Shown piece after piece: positions 7,586-23,194 of a stretch of DNA of 64,000 bases. How positions within the stretch are numbered: the stretch's first letter is position 1; each line of letters starts with the position of its first letter. Both the position numbers and the translations under genes were made by a program. Origin of the DNA: Flavobacterium gelatinilyticum (GTDB lineage: Bacteria > Bacteroidota > Bacteroidia > Flavobacteriales > Flavobacteriaceae); NCBI RefSeq assembly GCF_027111295.1, contig NZ_CP114287.1:1302001-1366000 (forward strand), in the 5' to 3' direction. Below the pieces are notes generated by a model. That model had not been told where the DNA came from, did not search any database, and saw nothing but the letters and a program-made list of their open reading frames with translations.

Positions 7586-9523
7586 CTATTTTTGAATAAT
7601 GATAAAGTCAGAGCGTCTGTTTAATAAATGTTCTTCTTCAGTACATTTCACTCCGTTTTTGCATTTATTGATTAAGCGGCTTTCACCGTAACCAATGGCA
7701 CTTTCGATTCTTGAAGCATCGATTCCTTGTGACACAATATAGTCTCTGGTTGATTTTGCTCTGTTATCAGAAAGTTTTAAGTTGTATGAATCTTTTCCGC
7801 GGGAATCTGTATGTGATTCTATTTTAATGCGAATGTTGGGAAACTTCTGCATAATGAAGACCACTTTTGTCAATTCTTCTACAGCCAGAGGTGTAATGTC
7901 GTATTTGTCGTAATCAAAGTAAATTGGTTTAACATCAACCATTTCTACGCCTTTCTTTTTCACCACTAAATCATCGTAATTGCTTAGTTCGAAATTTACA
8001 TTAGGAATTTCGCGTTCGTTTTCTTTTGTAGTTTCGACTGTTCTTTCGTCACTGCTGTAGTTTGGTTTGGCCGCAATCATATTGACCACTTTATTACACG
8101 GCACTGTAATGGCATATTTCCCTTCGTAATTAGTTTTGGTTTCGCCTAATACTTCTTTAAAAGAGTTGTAAGCCATAATAGTAACATCTGTTAAAGGCAG
8201 TTTGGTTTTTCTGTCAACAGCCATTCCTGATATGTTTTGGTTACAAACCGGTTTTCCTTTGGTAAAAGCGTAGATATCATCATCTCCTTTACCTCCTGCC
8301 CTGTTTGATGAAATGTAGCCGTAACTTTCTGTCTTGTCTACTATATAAGCAAAATCATCTTTGTTGCTGTTTATAGGAGCGCCTAAATTGCGTGGAACGG
8401 TAAAATTTCCATCCGGCAGAAATTTACTTTCGTAAACATCTAAATCACCAAGGCCGTAATGTCCGTCTGAAGAAAAATAAAGTATTCCGTTTCTAAAAAA
8501 TGGAAAAAGGTCATTACCAATTGTATTGATATTAGGTCCCAGATTTAAAGGAGAACTCATTGTACCATCATCTGAAATTTTCACAACATACAAATCGGTT
8601 TCACCAAAACCTCCCGGCATATCGGATGCAAAGAAAAGCCATTGTCCGTCATCGCTTAAGCAAGGATGTCCTACCGAATAATCTTCGCTGTTGAAGAAAA
8701 CGCCCTGCGGATTTTCGAGTTTGTTATCGACAAGTGATCCTTTGATAATCTGGAAATTGTTGATTTTATTTCCGTCTAAAACCAGTTTGTTTTTCTTTAC
8801 AATGTTCGTTGTATAATAGATCGTTTTTCCGCTTGCATCAAAAGTCGCTGTTGCTTCGTGGTATTTACTCATTACGTTGGGTAAAAATAACGTTTCGTTG
8901 AATAAACTCCCATCGGCAGGATTTCTTTCAGATAAATACAAATTCAGGAAAGGCTGGTTGTTCCATGTATACAGTTTTTCGCTGAATTTTGTTGTATCTC
9001 TCGCAGAAGTAAACACGATTTTTTCCTGAAAAAAGGCGGTTCCAAAATCAGATTTACTGGTATTGATATCCAGATTTTTAACCTGATACAAAGGTTTTGC
9101 TTTTGCCAGACTGTCCAGAATTTTTTTCTGGGCTACATAACGATTGATTTCTTTTTGGTCTCCTTTTTTATCGAGATATTCTTTTGTGATCTTATCTGCT
9201 TCATCATAATCCATGACTGCTTTCATAGTCTGAATATAACGCAGATAGTAAATGTCTGTTAAATTATTGCCTTGTACTTCGTAAAGTTTTCTATACCATT
9301 TTAATGCATTTCGTGCATCTGAAATAAAATAATACGAGTCGGCTGCATTTTTTAAAGTCTGTGCCGATGGATTCTTGATATTCTGCAGACATTCTTCGTA
9401 TGCTTTTGAAGCATCTGTATAAGAGAAGTTTCTGAACAAAGCATCGGCTTTCTTTAAATTAGTCTTTTGAGCAAAACTAAACGTAATGCTCAAGACTAAA
9501 CTCAGGATATATAATTTTTTCAT
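7586..9523 (-). CDS. OmpA-family protein with TPR, PD40 repeats and peptidoglycan-binding domain
   Basis: The 645-residue protein has a Sec signal peptide ending FSFAQ (cleavage near residue 19). TPR-like helices follow (about 25-135), then WD40-like PD40 beta-propeller segments (DGQWLFFASDMPGGFGETDLY, FFRNGILYFSSDG, YGYISSNRAGGKGDDDIYAF), a carboxypeptidase-regulatory-like beta domain starting NISGMAVDRKTK, and a C-terminal OmpA domain (about 530-645) with the peptidoglycan-binding motif SHTDSRG and LSDNRA. The same architecture accompanies T9SS PorP/SprF genes in many flavobacteria. It lies 11 bp after porP. I infer that it anchors or guides the adhesin or its outer-membrane partner to the peptidoglycan. 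Confidence 0.88.
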   Translation of the reverse strand: MKKLYILSLVLSITFSFAQKTNLKKADALFRNFSYTDASKAYEECLQNIKNPSAQTLKNAADSYYFISDARNALKWYRKLYEVQGNNLTDIYYLRYIQTMKAVMDYDEADKITKEYLDKKGDQKEINRYVAQKKILDSLAKAKPLYQVKNLDINTSKSDFGTAFFQEKIVFTSARDTTKFSEKLYTWNNQPFLNLYLSERNPADGSLFNETLFLPNVMSKYHEATATFDASGKTIYYTTNIVKKNKLVLDGNKINNFQIIKGSLVDNKLENPQGVFFNSEDYSVGHPCLSDDGQWLFFASDMPGGFGETDLYVVKISDDGTMSSPLNLGPNINTIGNDLFPFFRNGILYFSSDGHYGLGDLDVYESKFLPDGNFTVPRNLGAPINSNKDDFAYIVDKTESYGYISSNRAGGKGDDDIYAFTKGKPVCNQNISGMAVDRKTKLPLTDVTIMAYNSFKEVLGETKTNYEGKYAITVPCNKVVNMIAAKPNYSSDERTVETTKENEREIPNVNFELSNYDDLVVKKKGVEMVDVKPIYFDYDKYDITPLAVEELTKVVFIMQKFPNIRIKIESHTDSRGKDSYNLKLSDNRAKSTRDYIVSQGIDASRIESAIGYGESRLINKCKNGVKCTEEEHLLNRRSDFIIIQK

Positions 9524-9534
9524 ACTTACAATTT

Positions 9535-10467
9535 TTAGAAGAATCGAGGAGATTTGATTTTATTCTGACCTTTATTGAACGTGTAGCGTAAAATGAATTC
9601 ATGTGTACCATCATTATACTTGTTCAACTCGCTGATTGTGTAATCGAAAGCGTAGCCCAGATAAAAACTTGGTGATATTTGAAAACCTGCGAGTATACTT
9701 ACCGAATCATCTGTACGGTATGATCCTCCAATGACAAACTTTTCAGCTATCATAAAATTCGCCGATACATCAGCAGTGAGCGGCGCACCGCTTACTGCTT
9801 TTACTAAAAATGCTGGTTTGAACTTTAAATTCGGGTTCAAATCAAAAACATATCCTCCCATCAAAAAATAATGTAAACGATCATAGTCTATAGATTCCTG
9901 AACATCATCATAATAATCGCTTCTGATAAAACTTGGAACCGAAAGACCTAAATAGAATTTCTCCGTATAGTAGTAAATACCTGCTCCAACAGCCAGTTTC
10001 ATCTGGTTAGTAATATTCTGATTCAGCAGAACATCATTATTGTTGTAATATTTCCCTTTAGACCAGTCTATGTTTAACATTCTCGTTCCGGCTTTAAGAC
10101 CAAATGCTAATCTTTTTTCATAGCCAAGAGGTACAGAATAAGAAAAGTTTCCGTCAAGATACAGCTCGTTTGAAGGACCTATTTTATCATTGACAACACT
10201 TAATCCTAAACCAATATTCTCGTTAGTAAGAGGCGAATGAATAGAAAACGATTGTGTTTCCGGCGCTCCTGAAATTCCTACCCATTGCGAACGATGCAAA
10301 AGAGTGGCTTCTAAAGTGCCGGTTGATCCGGCATAAGCCGGATTAACCGCCATTGTGTTATACATATACTGAGTATATTGGGGATCTTGTTGTGCACTGG
10401 CACATATTGTAATAAAAGAACATATTAAAATGAAATACGTTTCTAATGGTTTTATATATAGTTTCAT
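9535..10467 (-). CDS. PorP/SprF family type IX secretion system membrane protein
   Basis: The 310-residue protein has a signal peptide ending ASAQQ. The mature start QDPQYTQYMYNTMAVNPAYA is diagnostic of the PorP/SprF family, an outer-membrane beta-barrel of about 300 residues. The barrel strands and the aromatic-rich end (FILRYTF) fit. In F. johnsoniae SprF is needed for export or attachment of SprB, which carries a type B C-terminal signal, and sprF-like genes are usually next to a type-B-signal adhesin. That is the case here: the giant adhesin precedes it by 46 bp. It is most likely the dedicated partner of that adhesin. Confidence 0.92.
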   Translation of the reverse strand: MKLYIKPLETYFILICSFITICASAQQDPQYTQYMYNTMAVNPAYAGSTGTLEATLLHRSQWVGISGAPETQSFSIHSPLTNENIGLGLSVVNDKIGPSNELYLDGNFSYSVPLGYEKRLAFGLKAGTRMLNIDWSKGKYYNNNDVLLNQNITNQMKLAVGAGIYYYTEKFYLGLSVPSFIRSDYYDDVQESIDYDRLHYFLMGGYVFDLNPNLKFKPAFLVKAVSGAPLTADVSANFMIAEKFVIGGSYRTDDSVSILAGFQISPSFYLGYAFDYTISELNKYNDGTHEFILRYTFNKGQNKIKSPRFF

Positions 10468-10513: not shown

Positions 10514-13500
10514 TTATCTCATGATAGATAACCATCCTTTTTTAACCGTTCCATCTCCAATGGTAATCACATAAAAATAAGTACCTGTTGGCAGCATGTC
10601 CCCTCTATTAACTACTCCGGATACATTTGCTGTTCCGTCCCAATCGTTTTCATAGTGTGCTTTGCTGTACACTAATGCACCATATCTATTAAAAACTTTT
10701 AATTCATTATTAGGATAAGATTCGATACAATCTATTCTGAATAAATCATTAGCTCCGTCATTGTTTGGCGTAAATTCGTTGTAAACTGTCAGACAAACCG
10801 GTTCAACAGATGCAGAAGCAGAATTGTTTGATTGATCTACATCTAACGGAGTTGAATTTTCGATTGTAACTACATTTAGATAGTTGCCGCTTGGCAGAAC
10901 CTCTGCTACTATTGTTAATGTAACGCTTTGTCCTGCAGCTAATGTTGGAATTGTCCAAAGTTGTGTTGACTGATCGTAAGTACCTGCAGATGTGCCTGCA
11001 CTTATTAACTGATAGCCGCTTGGCAGTAATTCGCTAACCAATACATCTTTGAAACCACCTTCGCCAACATTGTTTACTGTTATGGTAAAGGTCACATGAT
11101 CGCCAAAATTAGGAGCCGGATTATCAACTACGTTCGTGATTGTTAAATCTGAACATGCTGCCACTGTTACATTTAATGATTTGGTAGTGGTTTCATTACA
11201 GTTGTTTACGTATGTAACCTGTATTGTTCCGGCACCAATATCTGACCATGAAATGGTTGCAGTTCCGTCTGAAGTTCCTCCTCCTGAAACAATTGTTCCA
11301 TTAGTAACTGACCAAACATAATTTGATTTACCATTTGCTATTGAATAAGTCACTTCCTGGAAAACACAAGGAGTGTCGTCTGTAGTAGTAAGCTGCACTA
11401 AAGCATCATTTTCAAAAGCAATTGTAATACCCAGCCTTTCTGCACTTGCACAACCATTAGTTGTATTGTTAAGTGCACTTGCATAATAAGTTGTTGCTGT
11501 AAGCGGCGTATTTGCTGCTAACGGTGTTCCTCCTGTTGCTGCAGCATACCATACTACATTTGGTTCATTAACCAAAATATTGACAAGTGTTGGCAATGCT
11601 GACAAACAGAATGTCTGTGTTGTACTTGGTGCAGTTATAACACCCGGAGTATTTACACTTACTGCAACAGCCAGTCTAACCGGATTTTCACAATTAGTAT
11701 TGCTTGCTATAACACCATAATAAGTTCTGGTTGTTAAAGCTGTCGTCGGAGCAATTGGAGTTCCACCTGTTGCTGTACTGTACCAAATTACGTTTGCCTG
11801 GTTTACCTGAATATTCGCTACCGCTGGATTAGATGTAGAACAGAAATCCTGAGTAGTATCTGTAGTTGTTGGCGTTGGACTTGGATCTTCTACCGTAACA
11901 ATTACCTGTAAACGAGTTGTGCTTTCACATCCTGAAACAGGATCTACGATGTTTCCGTAGTAAGTTCCTGATGTTAATGCTGTAGTTGGCGCTATCGCAG
12001 TTCCGCCAGTTGCTGTTGCAAACCAAATCACATTAGCTTCGTTAACCTGAATACTGGCTATCGTTGGGTTACTGCCAGAGCAGAAACTTTGTGATGTATT
12101 GGCAGTTGTTGGATTCGTTGTATTTCCAACTGTTACTGCTACCAGTAATCTAACATTGCTTTCGCAGCCCGTTACCGGATTTTTGATTGCTCCATAATAA
12201 TTACCATTTACTAATGCTGTCGCTGCTGGAATCGCTGTTCCGCCTGTTGCAGCTGTATACCATACTACATTTGCTTCATTTACCTGAATGTTCGCAACTG
12301 TTGGATTAGTTCCTGAACAGAATGTTTGTGTAGCATCATTTGTAGTTGGCGTCGCAGGATTAGTTACTGTAACTGTAACTAACAATCTTGCATTACTTTC
12401 ACATCCTGCAGCATTTCTAATTGCTGCATAATAAGGACCGTTTGCTAATGCTGTTGTGGCTGGAATCGCTGTTCCGCCTGTAGCAGCTGCGTACCAAACG
12501 ATTGTGCCTGTCGCAGGTGTGTTTACCTGGATATCGGCAACTGTAGGCGAATCAACCAAACAGAAGTCTTGTGTCGCATCTGCTGTGGTTGGTGTGCCAG
12601 GATCGCTTACCGTTACGGCAACTTCTAATCTTACATTGCTTTCACAGTTTGTAATTGGATCTAAGATTGAGGCAAAATAACTTCCTGTAGCTAGTGCAGT
12701 TGTAGCTGGAACCGCTGTTCCGCCTGTGGCAGCTGCATACCAAACGATTGTGCCTGATGCAGGTGTGTTTACCTGAATGTCGGCAACTGTTGGTGCATCC
12801 ACTAAACAAAAGTCTTGCGTTGTATCTGCTGTGGTCGGTGTGCCAGGATCGCTTACCGTTACTTCAACTTGTAATCTAACTGAACTTTCACAGTTGGTTG
12901 CAGGATCTAAAATTGAAGCGAAGTAGTTTCCTGTAGCTAAAGCGGTTGTGGCTGGAATCGCTGTTCCGCCTGTCGCTGCTGTGTACCAAACTATTGAGCC
13001 TGTTGCAGGAGCATTCACCTGAATATTCGCAACTGTCGGAGCATCAACTAAACAGAATGCCTGAGTGGTATCTGCTGTTGTCGGAGTGCCCGGATCGCTT
13101 ACCGTTACTTCAACTTGTAATCTAACTGAACTTTCACAGTTGGTCGTTGTATTTAAAATTGACGCAAAGTATAAACCATTTGTTAATGCTGTTGTAGATG
13201 GAATCGCTGTTCCGCCTGTAGCTGCTGTGTACCAAACAATTGTGCCCGTTGCAGGAGCGTTTACCTGAATATCGGCAACTGTAGGCGAATCAACCAAACA
13301 GAAGTCTTGTGTCGCATCTGCTGTAGTTGGTGTGCCCGGATCGCTTACCGTTACGGCAACTTCTAATCTTACATTGCTTTCACAATTTGTGATTGGATCT
13401 AAGATTGATGCAAAATAACTTCCTGTGGCTAGTGCAGTTGTAGCTGGAATCGCTGTTCCGCCTGTAGCTGCTGCATACCAAACGATTGTGCCTGATGCAG

Positions 13501-16500
13501 GTGTGTTTACCTGAATGTCAGCAACTGTTGGTGCATCTACTAAACAGAAGTCTTGTGTTGTATCTGCTGTTGTCGGCGTGCCAGGATCGCTTACTGTTAC
13601 TTCAACCTGTAATCTTACATTGCTTTCGCAGTTGGTTGCAGGATCTAAAATTGAAGCAAAGTAGTTTCCTGTAGCTAAAGCTGTAGTCGGAGCAATCGCT
13701 GTTCCGCCTGTCGCTGTGCTGTACCAGACAATTGAACCAGTCGCTGGCGTATTTACCTGAATGTCGGCAACTGTCGGAGCATCAACTAAACAGAATGCCT
13801 GAGTGGTATCTGCTGTTGTAGGTGTGCCCGGATCGCTTACTGTTACTTCAACTTGTAATCTAACTGAACTTTCACAGTTGGTCGTTGTATTTAAAATCGA
13901 TCCAAAGTATAAACCGTTTGTTAATGTTGCTGTAGAAGCTAAAGGTGTTCCGCCTGTAGCAGCTGCATACCAAACGATTGTGCCTGTCGCAGGAGTGTTT
14001 ACCTGAATATCGGCAACTGTAGGCGAATCAACCAAACAGAAGTCTTGTGTAGCATCTGCTGTGGTTGGTGTGCCCGGATCGCTTACCGTTACCGCAACTT
14101 CTAATCTTACATTGCTTTCACAGTTTGTTACCGGATCTAAGATTGATGCAAAATAACTTCCTGTAGCTAGTGCAGTTGTCGCTGGAACCGCTGTTCCGCC
14201 TGTGGCTGCTGTGTACCAAACGATTGTGCCTGATGCAGGTGTGTTTACCTGAATGTCAGCAACTGTTGGTGCATCTACTAAACAGAAGTCTTGTGTTGTA
14301 TCTGCTGTTGTCGGCGTGCCAGGATCGCTTACTGTTACTTCAACCTGTAATCTTACATTGCTTTCGCAGTTGGTTGCAGGATCTAAAATTGAAGCAAAGT
14401 AGTTTCCTGTAGCTAAAGCTGTAGTCGGAGCAATCGCTGTTCCGCCTGTCGCTGTGCTGTACCAGACAATTGAACCAGTCGCTGGCGTATTTACCTGAAT
14501 GTCGGCAACTGTCGGAGCATCAACTAAACAGAATGCCTGAGTGGTATCTGCTGTTGTAGGTGTGCCCGGATCGCTTACTGTTACTTCAACTTGTAATCTA
14601 ACTGAACTTTCACAGTTGGTCGTTGTATTTAAAATCGATCCAAAGTATAAACCGTTTGTTAATGTTGCTGTAGAAGCTAAAGGTGTTCCGCCTGTAGCAG
14701 CTGCATACCAAACGATTGTGCCTGTCGCAGGAGTGTTTACCTGAATATCGGCAACTGTAGGCGAATCAACCAAACAGAAGTCTTGTGTAGCATCTGCTGT
14801 GGTTGGTGTGCCCGGATCGCTTACCGTTACCGCAACTTCTAATCTTACATTGCTTTCACAGTTTGTTACCGGATCTAAGATTGATGCAAAATAACTTCCT
14901 GTAGCTAGTGCAGTTGTCGCTGGAACCGCTGTTCCGCCTGTGGCTGCTGTGTACCAAACGATTGTGCCTGATGCAGGTGTGTTTACCTGAATGTCAGCAA
15001 CTGTTGGTGCATCTACTAAACAGAAGTCTTGTGTTGTATCTGCTGTTGTCGGCGTGCCAGGATCGCTTACCGTTACTTCAACTTGTAATCTGACATTGCT
15101 CTCGCAGTTGGTTGCAGGATCTAAAATTGAAGCAAAGTAGTTTCCTGTAGCTAGTGCAGTTGTAGCTGGAATCGCTGTGCCGCCTGTCGCTGCTGTGTAC
15201 CAAACTATTGAGCCTGTTGCAGGTGCATTCACCTGAATGTTCGCAACTGTCGGAGCATCAACTAAACAGAATGCCTGAGTGGTATCTGCTGTGGTCGGAG
15301 TTCCCGGATCGCTTACCGTTACTTCAACTTGTAATCTAACTGAACTTTCACAGTTTGTGGTTGTATTTAAAATCGATGCGAAGTATAAACCGTTTGTTAA
15401 TGCTGTTGTGGATGGAATCGCTGTTCCGCCTGTTGCAGCCGCATACCAAACGATTGTGCCTGTCGCAGGTGTGTTTACCTGAATATCGGCAACTGTAGGC
15501 GAATCAACCAAACAGAAGTCTTGTGTCGCATCTGCTGTAGTTGGTGTGCCCGGATCGCTTACCGTTACGGCAACTTCTAATCTTACATTGCTTTCACAAT
15601 TTGTGATTGGATCTAAGATTGATGCAAAATAACTTCCTGTGGCTAATGCAGTTGTAGCTGGAATTGCTGTTCCGCCTGTGGCTGCTGCATACCAAACGAT
15701 TGTGCCTGCCGCAGGAGTGTTTACCTGAATGTCAGCAACTGTTGGTGCATCCACTAAACAGAAGTCTTGCGTTGTATCTGCTGTGGTTGGTGTGCCAGGA
15801 TCGCTTACCGTTACTTCAACCTGTAATCTTACATTGCTTTCGCAGTTGGTTGCAGGATCTAAAATTGAAGCAAAGTAGTTTCCTGTAGCTAAAGCTGTAG
15901 TCGGAGCAATCGCTGTTCCGCCTGTCGCTGTGCTGTACCAGACAATTGAACCAGTCGCTGGCGTATTTACCTGAATGTCGGCAACTGTCGGTGCATCAAC
16001 TAAACAGAATGCCTGAGTGGTATCTGCTGTTGTAGGTGTGCCCGGATCGCTTACCGTTACTTCAACTTGTAATCTAACTGAACTTTCACAGTTGGTCGTT
16101 GTATTTAGAATTGAAGCGAAGTATAAACCATTTGTTAGTGCTGTTGTGGCTGGAATCGCTGTTCCGCCTGTTACAGCTGTGTACCAAACAATTGTGCCTG
16201 TCGCAGGAGTGTTTACCTGAATATCGGCAACTGTTGGTGCATTTACTAAACAGAAGTCTTGTGTCGCATCTGCTGTGGTTGGTGTGCCAGGATCGCTTAC
16301 CGTTACCGCAACTTCTAATCTTACATTGCTTTCACAATTTGTGATTGGATCTAAGATTGATGCAAAATAACTTCCTGTGGCTAGTGCAGTTGTAGCTGGA
16401 ACCGCTGTTCCGCCTGTAGCTGCTGCATACCAAACGATTGTGCCTGATGCAGGTGTGTTTACCTGAATGTCAGCAACTGTTGGTGCATCTACTAAACAGA

Positions 16501-19500
16501 AGTCTTGTGTTGTATCTGCTGTTGTCGGCGTGCCAGGATCGCTTACTGTTACTTCAACCTGTAATCTTACATTGCTTTCGCAGTTGGTTGCAGGATCTAA
16601 AATTGAAGCGAAGTAGTTTCCTGTAGCTAAAGCTGTAGTCGGAGCAATCGCTGTTCCGCCTGTCGCTGTGCTGTACCAGACAATTGAACCAGTCGCTGGC
16701 GTATTTACCTGAATGTCGGCAACTGTCGGTGCATCAACTAAACAGAATGCCTGAGTGGTATCTGCTGTTGTAGGTGTGCCCGGATCGCTTACTGTTACTT
16801 CAACCTGTAATCTAACTGAACTTTCACAGTTGGTCGTTGTATTTAAAATCGATGCAAAGTATAAACCGTTTGTTAATGCTGTTGTGGATGGAATCGCTGT
16901 TCCGCCTGTCGCAGCTGCGTACCAAACGATTGTGCCTGTCGCAGGGGTGTTTACCTGGATATCGGCAACTGTAGGCGAATCAACCAAACAGAAGTCTTGT
17001 GTCGCATCTGTAGTTGTTGGAGTTCCTGGATCAGTAATACTTATTGCTACTGCCAAACGAACACTGCTCTCACAGCCTGTAACACCATCTACAGCCGCAC
17101 CATAATAGGTACCATTTACTAAAGGTGTTGTGGAAGCTAAAGCTGTTCCGCCTGCTGACACCGTATACCAAACTACACCTGATTCGTTTACCTGAATACT
17201 TGCTACTGTCGGAGCATCAATTAAACAAAAATCTTGTGTCGTATCTGTTGTGGTTGGTGTATTTGGATCGCTGATCATAATTACAGCATCTTGTAATGTT
17301 CCTGCAAGATTTTCACAGGTAGTATCACTAGAAACTGCTACATAATACGTTATAGGGCTTTGTGCTTTTGTTAATCCTGTTGCGGTTAAAACTCCTGCAG
17401 CGTTTATTGTATAAGTTACTCCACTAATAACTGCTCCATTTGTAATTGGCTGTGTTCTGGCATCATCTAAATACCAGGTAAATACAGGATTAGTCAATGT
17501 TGGTGCAGTTGGTGTTAATGATGCAGGCACACTATGACAAAACGTTGCGTCATCAACCAAAATATCATTAATAGTGGAAGGTGGTAAAATAGTAAAGGTT
17601 ATTTGTTTTCTGTCGGCTTCTGCAGTTTCGCAAAGCTCATCAGAACTTACTCCAACATAATAGGTATAAGTACCCGGAAGTAATCCCGGCTGTACTAATT
17701 GAAATGTTGTCTCTCCTGCGATTAACTGAGGTGAAGCTCCGTTCAAACGGTACCAGTAGTAAACAGGATTGGTCAAAACTGAAGAACCGCTTAAACTTGT
17801 TGCAAGGGTTACATTTCCTGTAGGAGAACAAATTGAAGTATCTGTGGCTCCGTTTAATGTAATATCAGTCAGTGCTGCCAATGGAGCAGACGCTTTAACT
17901 TCAACCGTAACTTCTCCTCTGGCAAAAGTTTCACAACCGTAACGTACCGGCTGTACATAATATTTATAAGTTCCTGCTGTTAAATTTGCAGGCAGTGTAT
18001 AGGTAATACCTGTAGTTAAAGCATTTCCTCCTGTAACCGCATCGTACCATATATAAGTCGAACAGGCTTCTTCAGGAATCTGAAGGGTTATCGCCGCGCC
18101 TGGACAGACCGTAACTTTATTTTGCGGATCTGCTCCAATTACGGTCGTATTAGCTGTTCTTTCTACAGTATGAACTCTTAAGTTATCCAGAACTCCGGCA
18201 ACTCCTCCTAAACGGATTCTTACTCTGTCGTAAATCTCTGTTGGTGAAGACACAAGAGCCATTGCCATAGAATTTCCAGGTAATAATCTTAAACTCAATA
18301 GTGTGCTTGTATTTTGAATTGGGGCACCTACAGCAACATTACCTAAATAACGCTGAATACTGAAACCTCTCAGTAAGTTAACATCTAAAAGTGCTCCCGG
18401 TTTTGAAATCACAATTCGTAATGTATCACTTATAACTGATGGTGTTTTAAACTGAACAGTTAAATCGGCAGCGGCTAAAGCTCCTACACCACTGAACATA
18501 GTTGCATAAGTGGCAATATCGTTGTCTGCAACTAAAAAGGCGTCAGTAACACCAACGGTTGCTGTTGCAGCTCCAATACCTAAATCTGCTGCTCCGTAAA
18601 ACACATCCTGAATATCTCCCGGTACACAGGTTACAGAAGTAACCGGTGTATAGTAATAAGCATCAAATACTTTTGTATTTTGAGCTACACTTGCAAGTGA
18701 AGCGGACTGAATTCGAATTCCATCGTATTGCTGAGGCCCTGAGGCATCTGAAGGAACAAACGTGAATTCGTATGTATTATCTCCTGAAAGTAAATTCAAT
18801 AATGAACCGGATACCGATTGCATTGTTCCGATATCTACTCCTCCTATAGTACCTATTACAGTTAAATTTTGTCCAACAGCCAACAAGCTGGCTTCTGAAC
18901 CTAATTTAACCGTTACCGGAGTACCTTTTGTAATAGGTGCCGCCCAGCTTAATTGCTGCCATGTTGTTCCAACACCTAAAAGACCTATTCCTGTAGTAAT
19001 TGTTGAGAATGTCTGCGGATTTCCATCGACAGCACTCGCTCCATTAGTAACGGTTCCGGTTATTATTGTTCCGGAAGTTTGTGCTGTTGCATAAACTCTG
19101 TCTGTTAAAGATTGACAATTACTCAGGTCTATAACATTAATTACTTTTGTTGCAGTCGTAGAACAAATTCCGTCACTAGCTACTGCTGTATAGGTATAAA
19201 CTCCCGGTGTACTTAGTACTCCCGTTGTAAATGTTGGTCCTGTTAAAGGATTTCCCTGCGGATCAAACCAGGTTATTGTTCCTGTAGAAGTTGCTAATAA
19301 GGTTACATTTGTACCAATAGCTACAGATTCTGAAGGATTAGTAATAACCAGACTTGGATTTGCATTAATGGTCACCGCCACAGATTGTCGAACTGACGGA
19401 CAAGTATCTCCCGAAGCCTGAGCCATAATTGAATAAACACCGCTTACAGTAATATTTGCTGCAGCATCTGCGGTTATAACATTGTTTGAAGCATCATAGA

Positions 19501-22500
19501 ACGTATAAGTAGTGTTTCCTGATGAGTCAAAATTAGTGATCGCATTTCCTAAATTAGCACTGCCACAGGCCGCTAATGCAGCATTTACAGTTAAAGTTGT
19601 AGTTGAAGGGAAATCAACAATTACTTCTTTTAATGTCCCTGCTATATTTTCACAAGTCCCGCCGTTTACAACAGAAACATAATAAGTATATGGTGCACCT
19701 ATTGAAGTTAAACCTGAAATAGTAAGAGCTCCTGTTATTGGATCTTTAGCAAATACTGCTGTGCCTATTGTAGTTCCATCAACAATTTCACCTGTTTTAT
19801 TTGGAGCTGTGTAATATCTAAATTCAGCCCCTGCAATTGTAGATGATGGAGCGATTACTGCTCCTCCTGTACAAGTTGCTTCAATTGGAGTTGTAATCAA
19901 TACATCTGCCGCTGTTGGAATTGGTAATACCGTAACCGTAACAGCCTGACGTAAACTATTCTCACACCCCCCTCTTGTTCCTTGTAAATAATAGGTAGTT
20001 GAAGTTGTTAAAGGTCCTGTTCCTGTTGTACTTAGTTGTAAAACATTTCCTCCTGTCGGGGCATCATACCATGTAAAAATTTCCGGTCCTCCTGTTGAAA
20101 CAGCATTTAAAATCGTTGAACCTCCCACACAAATTGGGTCTGCCGCTCCTGTTATAACAGCATCAGGATATCTGTAAGCAGCCTGATAAATATACAGGTT
20201 GTCCAAAAGTGATGCCGTTCCTCCTAATCGTACTTCTACACGATCAAACGCTGCTCCGGCAGTAAAACTGGCTTTGAATTTATTTCCTGATAACAACTGA
20301 ATATTCAGTAAATTATTATTTATAGCTCTTCTGTCATTATTAAAAATACCTCCATTGTAAGTTGCTAAGGTAATATTAGATAAAACACCAATATCAAGAA
20401 CACCACCCGGAACTTCTAATTCAACATCAATAATATCTCCTGCCACACCCGGATTAGCAAAAATCAATTGCTGCTGCAGATAGGCTCCAACACCAAGCGT
20501 TACTGTTAACTGCGAATAACTATTGATATCACCATCAACAGCACGACCCGGATTAATAGGTGCACATAAAACGCATAAAACGCCATCGCCTGAGAAATTT
20601 TGATTATTTGCCTGTAAACAAGTACTGGCACTAGCTATAACCGTAACTGTAACAGCTCCTCTGGCAGGATTAGCACAATCAGTACTTATATTAGATGCCT
20701 CTACATAATAAGTTTGAGTACTTGTTAATATTGCTGTAGTAAAGGTTGGGGAATTTGGCTGTACAATATTCCCTCCAGTTGCCGCGTCATACCAATTGTA
20801 TCGAACTCCTGCAGTCGGATTTGAAACTGCCAGTGTTGCATTCTGACCAGATTGAATAATCACATTTGAAGATGCAAAAGTAGGAACAGCTGGTATCGGA
20901 CTTACGGTCAAACCTACGAGTGTACGTGTAGGCGATGGACAACTGCCAATTAAACCTTCTACATAATAATTTGTATTTGCAATCAAAGCCGGAGTTGTAA
21001 ATGATGTCCCAGTAAACAGCAAATTACCGCCTGTTGCGGCATCATACCAATTATAAGTAGTGCCTGCAACCGGTGCCTGAATTGTTATAGTCGTACTTTG
21101 CCCGCTGCATATTGTAGTTGGTGAAAAAGTAATTACTGGAGGCGCCAAAGGATTATCTATCGTTATCTGAACCGGAGTTCTCTCACTGTTAACGCAGCCG
21201 TTTCTTGTTATTTCAGCATAATAAGTTGTAGCTGTTGTTAAAGCCGGAGTAGTAAATGCGGCTGTTGACGCCAATGAAGGACCTCCTGCAGCTGCACTAT
21301 ACCAGTTTACCGTTTCTCCAACTGCAAGGGCTGCGGTTAGTGTAGTAGTCTGTCCGCTGCAAATAGCTGTATTTCCGGTAATAACCGCAGCTTTATATCT
21401 GTAAGTCGCCTGATAAATATCTAAGTTAGACAGAAGAGTGGCCAAACCTCCTAATCGTATTTCAACACGATCAAAATTAGCACCCGCAACAACGCTGGCT
21501 CTAAATCGGTTACCTGATAATACCTGTAAAGTCACTAACGGATTAGTAGCTAATATTCTGTCATTATTATAAGTTGCTCCGTTATAAGTAGCAAGACTCA
21601 CACCTCCTAATAAAGTAACATCTGCAATACCTCCCGGTAATTCTAAATCTACATCTACAATATCACCTGCTTTACCAGGATTTATAAATTGTAAAGTCTG
21701 CTGCACCCATCCGGTAAGCAAGCCTACAGGAACAGTAAGTCTGGCTGCTGTAGCAGGATTTCCATCAACTGAAAAATTTGGATTAGTAGAGCTGCACAAT
21801 AAACACAAACCATTCTGGCTAGTCTGCTGGCTGCTCGCTTCCAGACACCCGCCCAAAGCTGCCGGTTGTACGGTTACTGTAACAGGAACTCTTGCAGCGC
21901 TGACACAGCTTCCATTCGGGCTTTGTGCTTCTACATAATAGGTTTTAGTCGCCGTTAAAATAGGAGTAGTGAAATTTGGCGTATTAGTGGCAACGGGTGT
22001 ACCACCAGCCGCTGTATCATACCAGTTTAATTGAACACCCGGTTCAGTAGTTGTCGCACTTAAAGTAGCATTCTGACCTGACTGAATAGTAACACTCTGA
22101 GTCAAAACTGTTGGTGTTGCAGGAACTGCTGTAGAAACTACATTGATCTGAGTACGGGTTGGACTGATACAAGTTCCTATAGATGCTTCTACAAAAAAGC
22201 TGGTGGTTCCCAAAGGAACTGTAGGAGAATATGTTGTACCACTTGCTAATGATGCTCCGCCACTTGCTGTAGGATACCAGGAATAAGTGGTTCCCGGAAC
22301 AGGGTTTACAAGTGTTAATGTTGTCTGCTGTGTTGCTCCTGTAGAACAAACAGTTGTTCCAATATTACTATAAGCCGGTGCTACCGGATTAGAAACATTT
22401 AAAACAACCGGTACACGAAGGTTTCCTTCACATCCAGCCTGTCTTGTTATACCTATATAATAAGTAGTTGAAGCGGTTAGTGCAGGTGTTGTAAAAGTTG

Positions 22501-23194
22501 GACCTGTTGCTAATGCTGTTGTTGACGCTGCTGAACTATACCATGCCAGTGTGGTTCCTGGTGCTGCAGTCGCAGTTAGAGTCGTTTGAGTTCCGGCACA
22601 AACTGTCTGAGTTAGACCTCCGCTCACTGTTGGCTGTGCAAACTCTAAACGAACGTCATAAAGTCGTAAACTTACCAGAAGACTTACCAGTCCCCCAACC
22701 TGAACCTGAATTTGGTTCGTATCACCTGTTACAGTATATCTTGCAACTGCAACCGTATTACCATTTAACAAATTAAGGTTCAAAAGCGGACTACTTAAAG
22801 CCACACTCGAACCTACATTCGCACCTGATAATTTGCCCTGCAAGGATACATTAGATAATAATGTGAGATCCAGCAAACCGTTTCCGGTACCAAAATAAAT
22901 GGCTATCTGATCTCCTGCCCTGGCCGTCTGGTTTAAGGTCAGCGTTTCTTCAACGAAACAACCAACCCCAACTGCATTCGTCAGAGTCGCATAGGTCGTT
23001 AAGCCAGCACTATCATAAGCGTTGGCGGGACTATCAATATCTAATCCTAAACACACTAACCCTCCCTGACTATTAGTTTGAGACAAAGGTCTGCAAATAG
23101 TCTGAGAAAATGCATTGGTGCATAATAGGAATAAAAATAAAAGTCCGAATAATCTCTTTTTAGAGAGATCACAAAAAGTAAATTTTTTTTTCAT
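10514..23194 (-). CDS. Giant T9SS-secreted adhesin with Ig-like repeats and type B sorting domain
   Basis: The product is 4226 residues (about 12.7 kb) and opens with a signal peptide ending NAFSQ (about residue 31). Visible layout: five divergent copies of a ~150-residue domain (about 35-188, 449-600, 858-1011, 1358-1516, 1523-1678), each with a variant of DRVEIRLGG near its end; Ig-like domains between them with the WYDAATGG / TYYVEA signature of CHU_C-associated Ig domains; an array of 82-residue Ig-like units from about residue 1973 to 3900, with a perfect three-unit higher-order section at 2055-3530; a DUF11-like domain from about 4017 (ITNVVDNPAPNFGDHVTFTI); and a C-terminal CHU_C / gliding-motility-associated domain (about 4137-4226) with NEFTPNNDGANDLF, FNRYGALVY and GTYFYVI. 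That last domain is the type B T9SS sorting signal. PorP/SprF and OmpA genes follow. By analogy with SprB it is a cell-surface adhesin; its ligand is unknown. Confidence 0.93.
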   Translation of the reverse strand: MKKKFTFCDLSKKRLFGLLFLFLLCTNAFSQTICRPLSQTNSQGGLVCLGLDIDSPANAYDSAGLTTYATLTNAVGVGCFVEETLTLNQTARAGDQIAIYFGTGNGLLDLTLLSNVSLQGKLSGANVGSSVALSSPLLNLNLLNGNTVAVARYTVTGDTNQIQVQVGGLVSLLVSLRLYDVRLEFAQPTVSGGLTQTVCAGTQTTLTATAAPGTTLAWYSSAASTTALATGPTFTTPALTASTTYYIGITRQAGCEGNLRVPVVLNVSNPVAPAYSNIGTTVCSTGATQQTTLTLVNPVPGTTYSWYPTASGGASLASGTTYSPTVPLGTTSFFVEASIGTCISPTRTQINVVSTAVPATPTVLTQSVTIQSGQNATLSATTTEPGVQLNWYDTAAGGTPVATNTPNFTTPILTATKTYYVEAQSPNGSCVSAARVPVTVTVQPAALGGCLEASSQQTSQNGLCLLCSSTNPNFSVDGNPATAARLTVPVGLLTGWVQQTLQFINPGKAGDIVDVDLELPGGIADVTLLGGVSLATYNGATYNNDRILATNPLVTLQVLSGNRFRASVVAGANFDRVEIRLGGLATLLSNLDIYQATYRYKAAVITGNTAICSGQTTTLTAALAVGETVNWYSAAAGGPSLASTAAFTTPALTTATTYYAEITRNGCVNSERTPVQITIDNPLAPPVITFSPTTICSGQSTTITIQAPVAGTTYNWYDAATGGNLLFTGTSFTTPALIANTNYYVEGLIGSCPSPTRTLVGLTVSPIPAVPTFASSNVIIQSGQNATLAVSNPTAGVRYNWYDAATGGNIVQPNSPTFTTAILTSTQTYYVEASNISTDCANPARGAVTVTVIASASTCLQANNQNFSGDGVLCVLCAPINPGRAVDGDINSYSQLTVTLGVGAYLQQQLIFANPGVAGDIIDVELEVPGGVLDIGVLSNITLATYNGGIFNNDRRAINNNLLNIQLLSGNKFKASFTAGAAFDRVEVRLGGTASLLDNLYIYQAAYRYPDAVITGAADPICVGGSTILNAVSTGGPEIFTWYDAPTGGNVLQLSTTGTGPLTTSTTYYLQGTRGGCENSLRQAVTVTVLPIPTAADVLITTPIEATCTGGAVIAPSSTIAGAEFRYYTAPNKTGEIVDGTTIGTAVFAKDPITGALTISGLTSIGAPYTYYVSVVNGGTCENIAGTLKEVIVDFPSTTTLTVNAALAACGSANLGNAITNFDSSGNTTYTFYDASNNVITADAAANITVSGVYSIMAQASGDTCPSVRQSVAVTINANPSLVITNPSESVAIGTNVTLLATSTGTITWFDPQGNPLTGPTFTTGVLSTPGVYTYTAVASDGICSTTATKVINVIDLSNCQSLTDRVYATAQTSGTIITGTVTNGASAVDGNPQTFSTITTGIGLLGVGTTWQQLSWAAPITKGTPVTVKLGSEASLLAVGQNLTVIGTIGGVDIGTMQSVSGSLLNLLSGDNTYEFTFVPSDASGPQQYDGIRIQSASLASVAQNTKVFDAYYYTPVTSVTCVPGDIQDVFYGAADLGIGAATATVGVTDAFLVADNDIATYATMFSGVGALAAADLTVQFKTPSVISDTLRIVISKPGALLDVNLLRGFSIQRYLGNVAVGAPIQNTSTLLSLRLLPGNSMAMALVSSPTEIYDRVRIRLGGVAGVLDNLRVHTVERTANTTVIGADPQNKVTVCPGAAITLQIPEEACSTYIWYDAVTGGNALTTGITYTLPANLTAGTYKYYVQPVRYGCETFARGEVTVEVKASAPLAALTDITLNGATDTSICSPTGNVTLATSLSGSSVLTNPVYYWYRLNGASPQLIAGETTFQLVQPGLLPGTYTYYVGVSSDELCETAEADRKQITFTILPPSTINDILVDDATFCHSVPASLTPTAPTLTNPVFTWYLDDARTQPITNGAVISGVTYTINAAGVLTATGLTKAQSPITYYVAVSSDTTCENLAGTLQDAVIMISDPNTPTTTDTTQDFCLIDAPTVASIQVNESGVVWYTVSAGGTALASTTPLVNGTYYGAAVDGVTGCESSVRLAVAISITDPGTPTTTDATQDFCLVDSPTVADIQVNTPATGTIVWYAAATGGTAIPSTTALTNGLYFASILNTTTNCESSVRLQVEVTVSDPGTPTTADTTQAFCLVDAPTVADIQVNTPATGSIVWYSTATGGTAIAPTTALATGNYFASILDPATNCESNVRLQVEVTVSDPGTPTTADTTQDFCLVDAPTVADIQVNTPASGTIVWYAAATGGTAVPATTALATGSYFASILDPITNCESNVRLEVAVTVSDPGTPTTADATQDFCLVNAPTVADIQVNTPATGTIVWYTAVTGGTAIPATTALTNGLYFASILNTTTNCESSVRLQVEVTVSDPGTPTTADTTQAFCLVDAPTVADIQVNTPATGSIVWYSTATGGTAIAPTTALATGNYFASILDPATNCESNVRLQVEVTVSDPGTPTTADTTQDFCLVDAPTVADIQVNTPAAGTIVWYAAATGGTAIPATTALATGSYFASILDPITNCESNVRLEVAVTVSDPGTPTTADATQDFCLVDSPTVADIQVNTPATGTIVWYAAATGGTAIPSTTALTNGLYFASILNTTTNCESSVRLQVEVTVSDPGTPTTADTTQAFCLVDAPTVANIQVNAPATGSIVWYTAATGGTAIPATTALATGNYFASILDPATNCESNVRLQVEVTVSDPGTPTTADTTQDFCLVDAPTVADIQVNTPASGTIVWYTAATGGTAVPATTALATGSYFASILDPVTNCESNVRLEVAVTVSDPGTPTTADATQDFCLVDSPTVADIQVNTPATGTIVWYAAATGGTPLASTATLTNGLYFGSILNTTTNCESSVRLQVEVTVSDPGTPTTADTTQAFCLVDAPTVADIQVNTPATGSIVWYSTATGGTAIAPTTALATGNYFASILDPATNCESNVRLQVEVTVSDPGTPTTADTTQDFCLVDAPTVADIQVNTPASGTIVWYTAATGGTAVPATTALATGSYFASILDPVTNCESNVRLEVAVTVSDPGTPTTADATQDFCLVDSPTVADIQVNTPATGTIVWYAAATGGTPLASTATLTNGLYFGSILNTTTNCESSVRLQVEVTVSDPGTPTTADTTQAFCLVDAPTVADIQVNTPATGSIVWYSTATGGTAIAPTTALATGNYFASILDPATNCESNVRLQVEVTVSDPGTPTTADTTQDFCLVDAPTVADIQVNTPASGTIVWYAAATGGTAIPATTALATGSYFASILDPITNCESNVRLEVAVTVSDPGTPTTADATQDFCLVDSPTVADIQVNAPATGTIVWYTAATGGTAIPSTTALTNGLYFASILNTTTNCESSVRLQVEVTVSDPGTPTTADTTQAFCLVDAPTVANIQVNAPATGSIVWYTAATGGTAIPATTALATGNYFASILDPATNCESSVRLQVEVTVSDPGTPTTADTTQDFCLVDAPTVADIQVNTPASGTIVWYAAATGGTAVPATTALATGSYFASILDPITNCESNVRLEVAVTVSDPGTPTTADATQDFCLVDSPTVADIQVNTPATGTIVWYAAATGGTAIPATTALANGPYYAAIRNAAGCESNARLLVTVTVTNPATPTTNDATQTFCSGTNPTVANIQVNEANVVWYTAATGGTAIPAATALVNGNYYGAIKNPVTGCESNVRLLVAVTVGNTTNPTTANTSQSFCSGSNPTIASIQVNEANVIWFATATGGTAIAPTTALTSGTYYGNIVDPVSGCESTTRLQVIVTVEDPSPTPTTTDTTQDFCSTSNPAVANIQVNQANVIWYSTATGGTPIAPTTALTTRTYYGVIASNTNCENPVRLAVAVSVNTPGVITAPSTTQTFCLSALPTLVNILVNEPNVVWYAAATGGTPLAANTPLTATTYYASALNNTTNGCASAERLGITIAFENDALVQLTTTDDTPCVFQEVTYSIANGKSNYVWSVTNGTIVSGGGTSDGTATISWSDIGAGTIQVTYVNNCNETTTKSLNVTVAACSDLTITNVVDNPAPNFGDHVTFTITVNNVGEGGFKDVLVSELLPSGYQLISAGTSAGTYDQSTQLWTIPTLAAGQSVTLTIVAEVLPSGNYLNVVTIENSTPLDVDQSNNSASASVEPVCLTVYNEFTPNNDGANDLFRIDCIESYPNNELKVFNRYGALVYSKAHYENDWDGTANVSGVVNRGDMLPTGTYFYVITIGDGTVKKGWLSIMR
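12605..17032 (-). repeat. Higher-order tandem array, 6 x 738 bp, each three 246-bp units
   Basis: Inside the adhesin gene the 82-residue Ig-like unit (246 bp) recurs in a fixed order of three subtypes (B-C-A, N to C). B has ATQDFCLVDSP and TNGLYFASILN. C has TTQAFCLVDAP and ATGNYFASILD. A has TTQDFCLVDAP and ATGSYFASILD. The triplet repeats six times with an exact 738-bp period: the first DPGTPTT aspartate codon is at 17032 and the one that follows the sixth triplet is at 12604. One more B-like unit follows, then four divergent units; one divergent unit precedes. Each unit has two cysteines (in DFCLV and TNCES). The array covers residues 2055-3530. Confidence 0.95.
13478..15070 (-). repeat. 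Near-identical tandem duplication within the 738-bp array
   Basis: By eye, 13478-14332 and 14216-15070 are identical at a 738-bp offset (about 855 bp compared in 60-base blocks without a difference). Just outside, the copies differ at several positions, for example in the stretch just before 13478 and at 15071. The rest of the array shows many silent and some coding differences between triplets, so this is the youngest duplication or a conversion tract. Confidence 0.85.

Follow-up and report, generated by a model that had tools for sequence, protein, structure and literature searches.

Higher-order repeats of three Ig-like subtypes in a predicted surface protein of Flavobacterium gelatinilyticum and a tendency to three-unit length steps across the genus

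We examined a stretch of 64,000 nucleotides from Flavobacterium gelatinilyticum (contig NZ_CP114287.1, positions 1,302,001 to 1,366,000; here the window), which encodes on its minus strand a predicted surface protein of 4226 amino acids (aa) with a row of 24 immunoglobulin (Ig)-like units. Eighteen of these (units 2–19, positions 12611–17038, minus strand) form a higher-order array, in which three diverged subtypes follow one another in the order B-C-A as six triplets of 738 bp, and steps of three domains are also found in many relatives, whose subtypes are different. Such an arrangement had been proposed in a first-pass annotation made from the letters of the window alone. The observation was confirmed, and its interpretation is supported and is extended here to a tendency across the genus.

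Within the gene, the six triplets are preceded by unit 1 and followed by a seventh B unit (unit 20) and units 21–24. Units 2–19 are exactly 246 bp each without an indel, with triplet 1 at 16301–17038 and triplet 6 at 12611–13348, both on the minus strand. DNA identity among units ranges from 74 to 100% and depends on the distance between them: mean nucleotide identity is 78.6% at a lag of one unit, 78.3% at lag 2, and 93.3% at lag 3, with 91.7% at lag 6 and 94.1% at lag 9. Every one of the 19 core units (2–20) has its best partner at a multiple-of-three lag, compared with a permutation mean of 6.0 of 19 (z 11.6). In a tree of units 2–19, the A units form a clade with support 0.98 and the C units one with support 0.96, and the split between A plus C and all B units has support 1.0. 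The array is a higher-order repeat, as units in the same place of different triplets are closer to each other than to their neighbours and periods of 246 and 738 bp are nested over six blocks with no slip. The nested periods, the count of 24 units, and the clustering of same-position units rather than neighbours had all been proposed or expected earlier and are borne out by the unit lengths, the lag identities, and the tree; the place given for the array (12605..17032) was correct apart from an offset of 6 bp.

The three subtypes proved distinct as well, but the differences between them exceed the two short stretches to which the first-pass annotation had confined them. Amino-acid differences that are fixed or nearly so occur at codons 12, 15, 21, 34, 36, 56, 57, 59, 66–68, 74, 78, and 80 (with one exception each at codons 21, 34, and 74), and the divergence is mostly silent. 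Between subtypes, synonymous divergence (dS) is 0.81–1.06 and non-synonymous divergence (dN) is 0.08–0.13, and within subtypes dS is 0.18–0.31. Because dS between subtypes exceeds that within them, the subtypes represent mainly old silent divergence and copies of the same subtype are younger. The one Cys pair described for each unit is likewise found: when 48 seven-unit stretches were aligned, none of the 14 Cys columns varied.

As possible sites of homologous exchange, we took exact 30-bp matches that link different units. There are 3720 such matches, of which 96% lie at multiple-of-three lags and 30 at lag 1. With exact homology found almost only at every third unit, exchange would gain or lose whole triplets, and the DNA homology favours an array that is locked to 738-bp steps in the window. 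Triplets 4 and 5 share 611 consecutive identical nucleotides and triplets 3 and 4 share one whole identical 246-bp A unit, tracts that are expected from block exchange after the subtypes had diverged. Between the C units of triplets 3 and 6 identity is 93%, compared with 87% to the other four C units, suggesting that exchange reached past adjacent triplets. We consider a stalk that exchanges in triplet register to be the best explanation as a whole, and a probable one. The array would act as the variable-length stalk of a type IX secretion system (T9SS) type B adhesin-like protein and would lengthen or shorten by homologous exchange between direct repeats. Three neighbouring units would have diverged first, leaving exact homology almost only at every third unit, and exchange in triplet register would then homogenise each subtype along the array and keep the subtypes apart. 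The pattern is directly observed, and from it we infer the exchange. Growth by unequal exchange of whole triplets after subtype divergence, as first proposed, is supported by the unit tree, the 611- and 246-nucleotide tracts, and three-unit length differences between relatives.

Relatives were collected as proteins and as genomic stretches. A search for homologues found 562, of which the 120 listed were used; P0096 and P0110 were dropped because they were without the C-terminal part, and 118 were kept. Of 398 genomes from the genus, 107 gave matches, and 60 stretches were fetched, 56 of which had both the pre-array and the post-array domains. The other four (L107, L119, L139, and L143) were dropped as no post-array domain was found. 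The L107 ortholog, from a single-contig genome, ends about 600 residues past the pre-array domain with no post-array domain in frame and is possibly truncated or frameshifted. The 118 proteins and 56 stretches gave 174 arrays, or 147 after removal of duplicates. Arrays with a post-array identity of at least 65% were assigned to the close clade. Single-contig genomes of about 4–6.7 Mb were called closed (for proteins, the longest contig listed per 90% cluster was used); this set was hand-picked from the homologue and genome tables and includes L113 from a two-contig genome. L142, which has a 579-aa stretch without unit matches, entered the unit counts with an estimated 19 units and the DNA best-partner test with 13; the later DNA and protein period tests and the indel alignment were run without it. 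The period tests covered arrays with at least seven core units.

Unit numbers lean strongly to multiples of three. Modulo three, the 147 arrays fall into 102 with remainder 0, 38 with remainder 1, and seven with remainder 2, and the close clade (n = 136) into 100, 30, and six. The 11 arrays outside the close clade divide into two, eight, and one, and the rule does not hold there. Two distant orthologs, L149 and L108, have 22 or 23 units, with core units that are on average 97–99% alike and show no period three. Among 31 close-clade arrays from closed genomes, 25 are multiples of three, six are 3k+1, and none is 3k+2, so that the three-unit length steps expected by the first-pass annotation are seen across species. 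On inspection of unit lengths, several 3k+1 arrays lack a distinct first unit and have six units, rather than four, following the variable core; judged in this way, the variable core would be 3k+1 in both groups. If short-read assemblers collapsed triplet repeats, steps of three could arise as an artefact, and some very short or odd arrays do lie on short contigs (P0013, 10 kb; P0102, 44 kb; P0108, 32 kb). The rule is, however, at least as strong in closed genomes as in the close clade overall, multiples of three account for eight of the 10 differing independent closed pairs, direct reading of single-contig or near-complete close-clade genomes gave 12 of 15, and the gene in the window sits within a single 5.83-Mb contig. 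A contribution of this kind is very improbable, and a pure assembly artefact was rejected because the rule holds in closed genomes.

Triplet periodicity is also found beyond the window. At the DNA level, 17 of 49 arrays have period three at a permutation p < 0.05; this set includes L144, with two 113-aa units, which was left out of the 41 close-clade arrays used for the DNA period test. In these 41, the best partner lies at lag 3 for 189 units versus 66 expected, at lag 1 for 91 versus 89, at lag 2 for 47 versus 77, and at lag 4 for 27 versus 57. The best period at z > 3 is three in 12 arrays, two in one, and five in one, and the array in the window is the strongest period-three case. At the protein level, the best period at z > 3 among 121 arrays is three in 26, two in four, and four in one.

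The subtypes that make up the triplets differ from one relative to another. When the classes in the window were compared with the same-phase classes of 23 other arrays, the three phase means differed by at most 2.2 points, and conservation of subtype phases across species was looked for in these 23 arrays and not found. In a tree of 99 units from six species, the 19 core units of the window form one clade (support 0.95) with all three subtypes inside it, each a clade, and a second clade (0.95) holds the ten core units of L138; the triplets of L114 combine two classes of 79 aa with one of 82 aa, and these classes fall in different parts of the tree. These species-specific clades, together with the lack of a phase match, imply that triplets arose repeatedly or that gene conversion between classes erased a common descent, and repeated formation is probable from the unit sequences. 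The first-pass annotation had suggested that the surface may present a repeating three-step pattern. Most of the divergence between subtypes is silent, and as relatives carry different subtypes, no particular pattern of this kind is conserved.

These comparisons bear on ordinary inheritance, by which an ancestral three-unit block was duplicated and its descendants kept the register, with nothing favouring three at present. Multi-domain duplication is common in repeat proteins, and in nebulin seven domains expand at once (Bjorklund et al. 2006, PMC1553488). The flanking units are, moreover, conserved by position. Unit 1 (17039..17275, minus strand), a boundary unit of 79 aa, has unit 1 as its best match in 12 of the 23 compared arrays. 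Units 21–24, which together with a linker occupy 11381..12367 on the minus strand, are boundary units too, and their positions, counted from the C-terminal end, are conserved across species: 20, 21, 17, and 23 of 23 arrays, respectively, have the best match in the corresponding position. Between these and the triplets lies unit 20 (12368..12610, minus strand), the seventh B, which has 81 aa and a differing end and is 91–96% identical to B units over its first 165 nucleotides. Ancestral classes, however, predict that same-phase units are closest, and the small phase differences hold in 23 of 23 comparisons; the core units of the window also form one clade against five relatives, although inter-class conversion could blur this. 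We regard simple inheritance of an ancestral register as unlikely.

Length differences between relatives point to the same step. Parsimony on the flanking-domain tree requires 84 changes in unit number, 50 in unit number modulo two, 70 modulo four, and 26 modulo three, the last count being lowered by the skewed modulo-three make-up itself. Unit number differs in 55 of 73 independent pairs, by three units in 24, by one in seven, and by two in three, and 31 of the 55 differences are multiples of three. Unit-by-unit alignment of 57 independent pairs at a distance of at most 0.15 gave 41 indels. These comprise three of one unit, four of two, 20 of three, one of four, two of five, and three of six units, along with larger indels of seven (one), eight (two), nine (one), ten (one), eleven (one), and eighteen units (two); 26 of the 41 are multiples of three. 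Among the 27 indels of one to three units, the 20 of exactly three exceed the one third expected (one-sided binomial p 2e-5, with pairs taken as independent and a null of 1/3 for all binomial values). The most frequent length difference between close relatives is three units, or about 740 bp. Pairs with identical flanks include P0085 and P0056 (9 versus 12 units), P0059 and P0042 (9 versus 12 units), and P0013 and the window protein (P0001; 6 versus 24 units), where the 10-kb contig of P0013 may be a collapsed assembly. P0020 and P0064, with near-identical flanks, differ by five units.

Several results weigh against the homology register as the full account of the three-step. No period at z > 3 was found in 27 of the 41 close-clade DNA-level arrays, and other periods occur: two in L129, P0026, P0029, and P0070, and five in L125. 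If either member of a pair has triplet periodicity, 14 of 18 indels are multiples of three; for the remaining pairs, among which pairs without a period value were placed, the figure is 12 of 23, a difference that is not significant (Fisher p 0.11). Arrays without periodicity also lean to three, as nine of these 23 indels are exactly three units, and this lean is not predicted by the homology register alone. P0022 is three units longer than P0048, and the difference lies inside a run of four units whose protein sequences are identical, where recombination could take any step. Total unit numbers point the opposite way, showing no preference for three without periodicity: multiples of three are found in 17 of 23 periodic pairs, in seven of 17 pairs in which the z value for period three (z3) is at most 2 in both members, and in five of 10 in which it is at most 1. 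The homology register explains part, and perhaps most, of the three-step, and a further contribution to the remainder is possible.

That remainder could come from three domains acting as a structural or selected module, such as a single stalk turn or a block that separates like domains, with mainly whole triplets surviving selection irrespective of the DNA register, a reading that we put forward tentatively and hold to be on the doubtful side. In its fuller form, likewise less probable than exchange in register, three Ig domains would be the true construction unit, the stalk would work or mutate only in whole triplets, and period three would re-form from new subtypes in each lineage, with a core of 3k+1 units between fixed boundary units. 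The lineage-specific triplet subtypes of the window, L114, and L138 agree with a module, as do the indels of non-periodic arrays, where nine of the 14 of one to three units are three-unit indels (one-sided binomial p 0.017). Multiples of three are found in 15 of the 19 closed arrays with z3 < 2, from 29 closed arrays with a period value. In period-two L129, 13 of 13 best partners lie at multiple-of-three lags, chiefly and most strongly at lag six. In the lineage of L129, P0026, P0029, and P0070, two old unit types alternate (about 60% DNA identity in L129), yet the arrays have 18 or 12 units. The L125 ortholog has 18 units with a five-unit periodicity, and 953 of its 1582 shared 30-mers lie at lag 5. 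Against a module stand this lag-five homology, which speaks against a three-step beyond homology, the mostly silent differences between subtypes, the total unit numbers without a preference where periodicity is absent (seven of 17), and the 3k+2 arrays, which number six among the 136 close-clade arrays; four of these are on contigs below 45 kb, P0114 is on 214 kb, and P0120 is on 1.56 Mb. An AlphaFold model of seven units, built with 48 alignment rows, gave no usable structural support, as it was too poor for the geometry to be read (mean pLDDT 51, pTM 0.26), and a search of solved structures returned a single match, 4q51, which was not significant (E 0.015).

As controls, we considered other giant repeat proteins. 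A second Ig_7 giant encoded in this genome (L154, C1:673336-681282), a single gene, has no period three. In it, a block is repeated about 1491 bp apart, with three Ig_7 units about 99% alike and a fourth 92% alike, and with one 762-bp inter-unit step per copy. Among 117 other giant repeat proteins from the search with L154, the best partner lies one, two, three, four, five, and six domain lengths away in 12, 17, 13, 11, 6, and 9% of protein windows, respectively, in a crude count that assumes an 80-residue unit for all and covers whole proteins. On the same count, an offset of three is the most frequent one in 16 of these 117, compared with 43 of 120 family members, and in the family the best-partner windows fall at lag 1 in 20%, lag 2 in 13%, lag 3 in 22%, and lag 5 in 27%. 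The lag-5 peak fits a block repeat of about 410 residues in the N-terminal part. Both controls, L154 without period three and the 117 giants without a peak at three, weigh against three as a general property of such giants. Within these controls, multi-domain duplication is therefore common and a preference for three is particular to this family.

The 4226-aa protein is encoded by a single open reading frame (ORF; 10514..23194, minus strand) and matches Ig_7, DUF11, CHU_C, and TIGR04131. Ig_7 (PF19081) matches over 32 stretches with 972.4 bits, above the Pfam cut-off. The DUF11 domain (Pfam) lies at 10805..11149 and the CHU_C/TIGR04131 T9SS type B sorting domain (Pfam and NCBIfam) at 10523..10789, both on the minus strand; the latter scores 61.1 bits for TIGR04131 against a cut-off of 35 and 95.2 for PF13585 against 27. 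The N-terminal part (17276–23194 of the window, residues 1–1973) contains the block repeat of about 410 residues, with residues 289–698 recurring at 50% identity. An antisense ORF at 16755–17105 on the plus strand was taken as a shadow of the array. The next gene (9535..10467, minus strand) encodes a PorP/SprF-family outer-membrane protein (PF11751 and TIGR03519), and it is followed by a gene (7586..9523, minus strand) for a PorE-like OmpA-family protein with profile matches to PD40, carboxypeptidase-regulatory, and OmpA domains, to which the NCBIfam CHU_0125 and PorE models align over nearly the whole length with scores below their cut-offs. The order of a PorP/SprF gene directly downstream and then a PorE-like gene is kept in 56 of 56 orthologous loci, and named close homologues of the protein are nearly all from Flavobacterium. 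With both the sorting domain and the downstream PorP/SprF gene, the protein is of T9SS type B make-up and its secretion to the surface is predicted. An adhesin role is suggested by the architecture, and its PorP/SprF and PorE-like partners may, as the operon and the literature suggest, keep the protein at the outer membrane. In F. johnsoniae, the product of Fjoh_3952-3951-3950, a locus of the same make-up, is reported to be statically anchored (PMC12618676). That locus and SprB-SprF share with the one described here a sorting domain, an adjacent PorP/SprF gene, and then a PorE-like gene (PMC12618676, PMC9143113); the descriptions used here treat secretion and anchoring rather than a repeat array, and the likeness to Fjoh_3952 claimed here is one of make-up.

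In alpha-satellite higher-order repeats, diverged monomers are amplified as a block and homogenised between blocks, as proposed here, although those arrays are non-coding and far larger. Among coding repeats, nebulin-type duplication is similar in that it copies a set number of domains at once, often mid-array, and gives peaks of self-similarity (PMC1553488). Nebulin is, however, a eukaryotic muscle protein, whereas here the protein is a bacterial surface protein, the unit is three, and the subtypes vary by species while three stays. The super-repeats of titin also consist of Ig-type domains in a complex pattern, but titin is eukaryotic, mixes domain types, and has a known filament partner (PMC7427331). 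Closest in setting are the Periscope proteins (SasG, Sgo_0707, and Rib), surface proteins with tandem, near-identical folded domains, whose repeat number varies between relatives and in which DNA identity is thought to drive recombination (PMC8201768, PMC9704523). The array described here has tandem domains that are similar to the extent given above, with the fold assigned by family match only, and its repeat number differs in identical-flank pairs (9/12, 9/12, and 6/24), which lie partly on short contigs and are pairs across relatives, not a strain series. A Periscope array is further expected to be rod-like and to project an N-terminal ligand-binding domain, and the seven-unit model was too poor to bear on this. 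The repeats of SasG are named E-G5, a two-domain repeat. In the parts of these papers used here, the descriptions contain no steps of several like domains, the terms 'higher-order' and 'supra' being absent from PMC8201768 and 'alternat' from PMC9704523, whereas here three subtypes of one domain make up the step. No triplet rule in a bacterial surface protein was found in titles and abstracts of the open-licence PubMed Central literature. Multi-domain duplication is already known; new here is a variant in which a bacterial surface protein prefers three while its subtypes are replaced.

The length of bacterial stalks is usually treated as a free count of repeats, and here a step of three domains is common across the genus. 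As the number three outlives the sequences that carry it, the family offers a natural experiment on the size of duplication blocks, in which recombination register can be set against protein mechanics. A protein labelled F. johnsoniae (P0019) has 18 units, and in this tractable relative the question is open to experiment.

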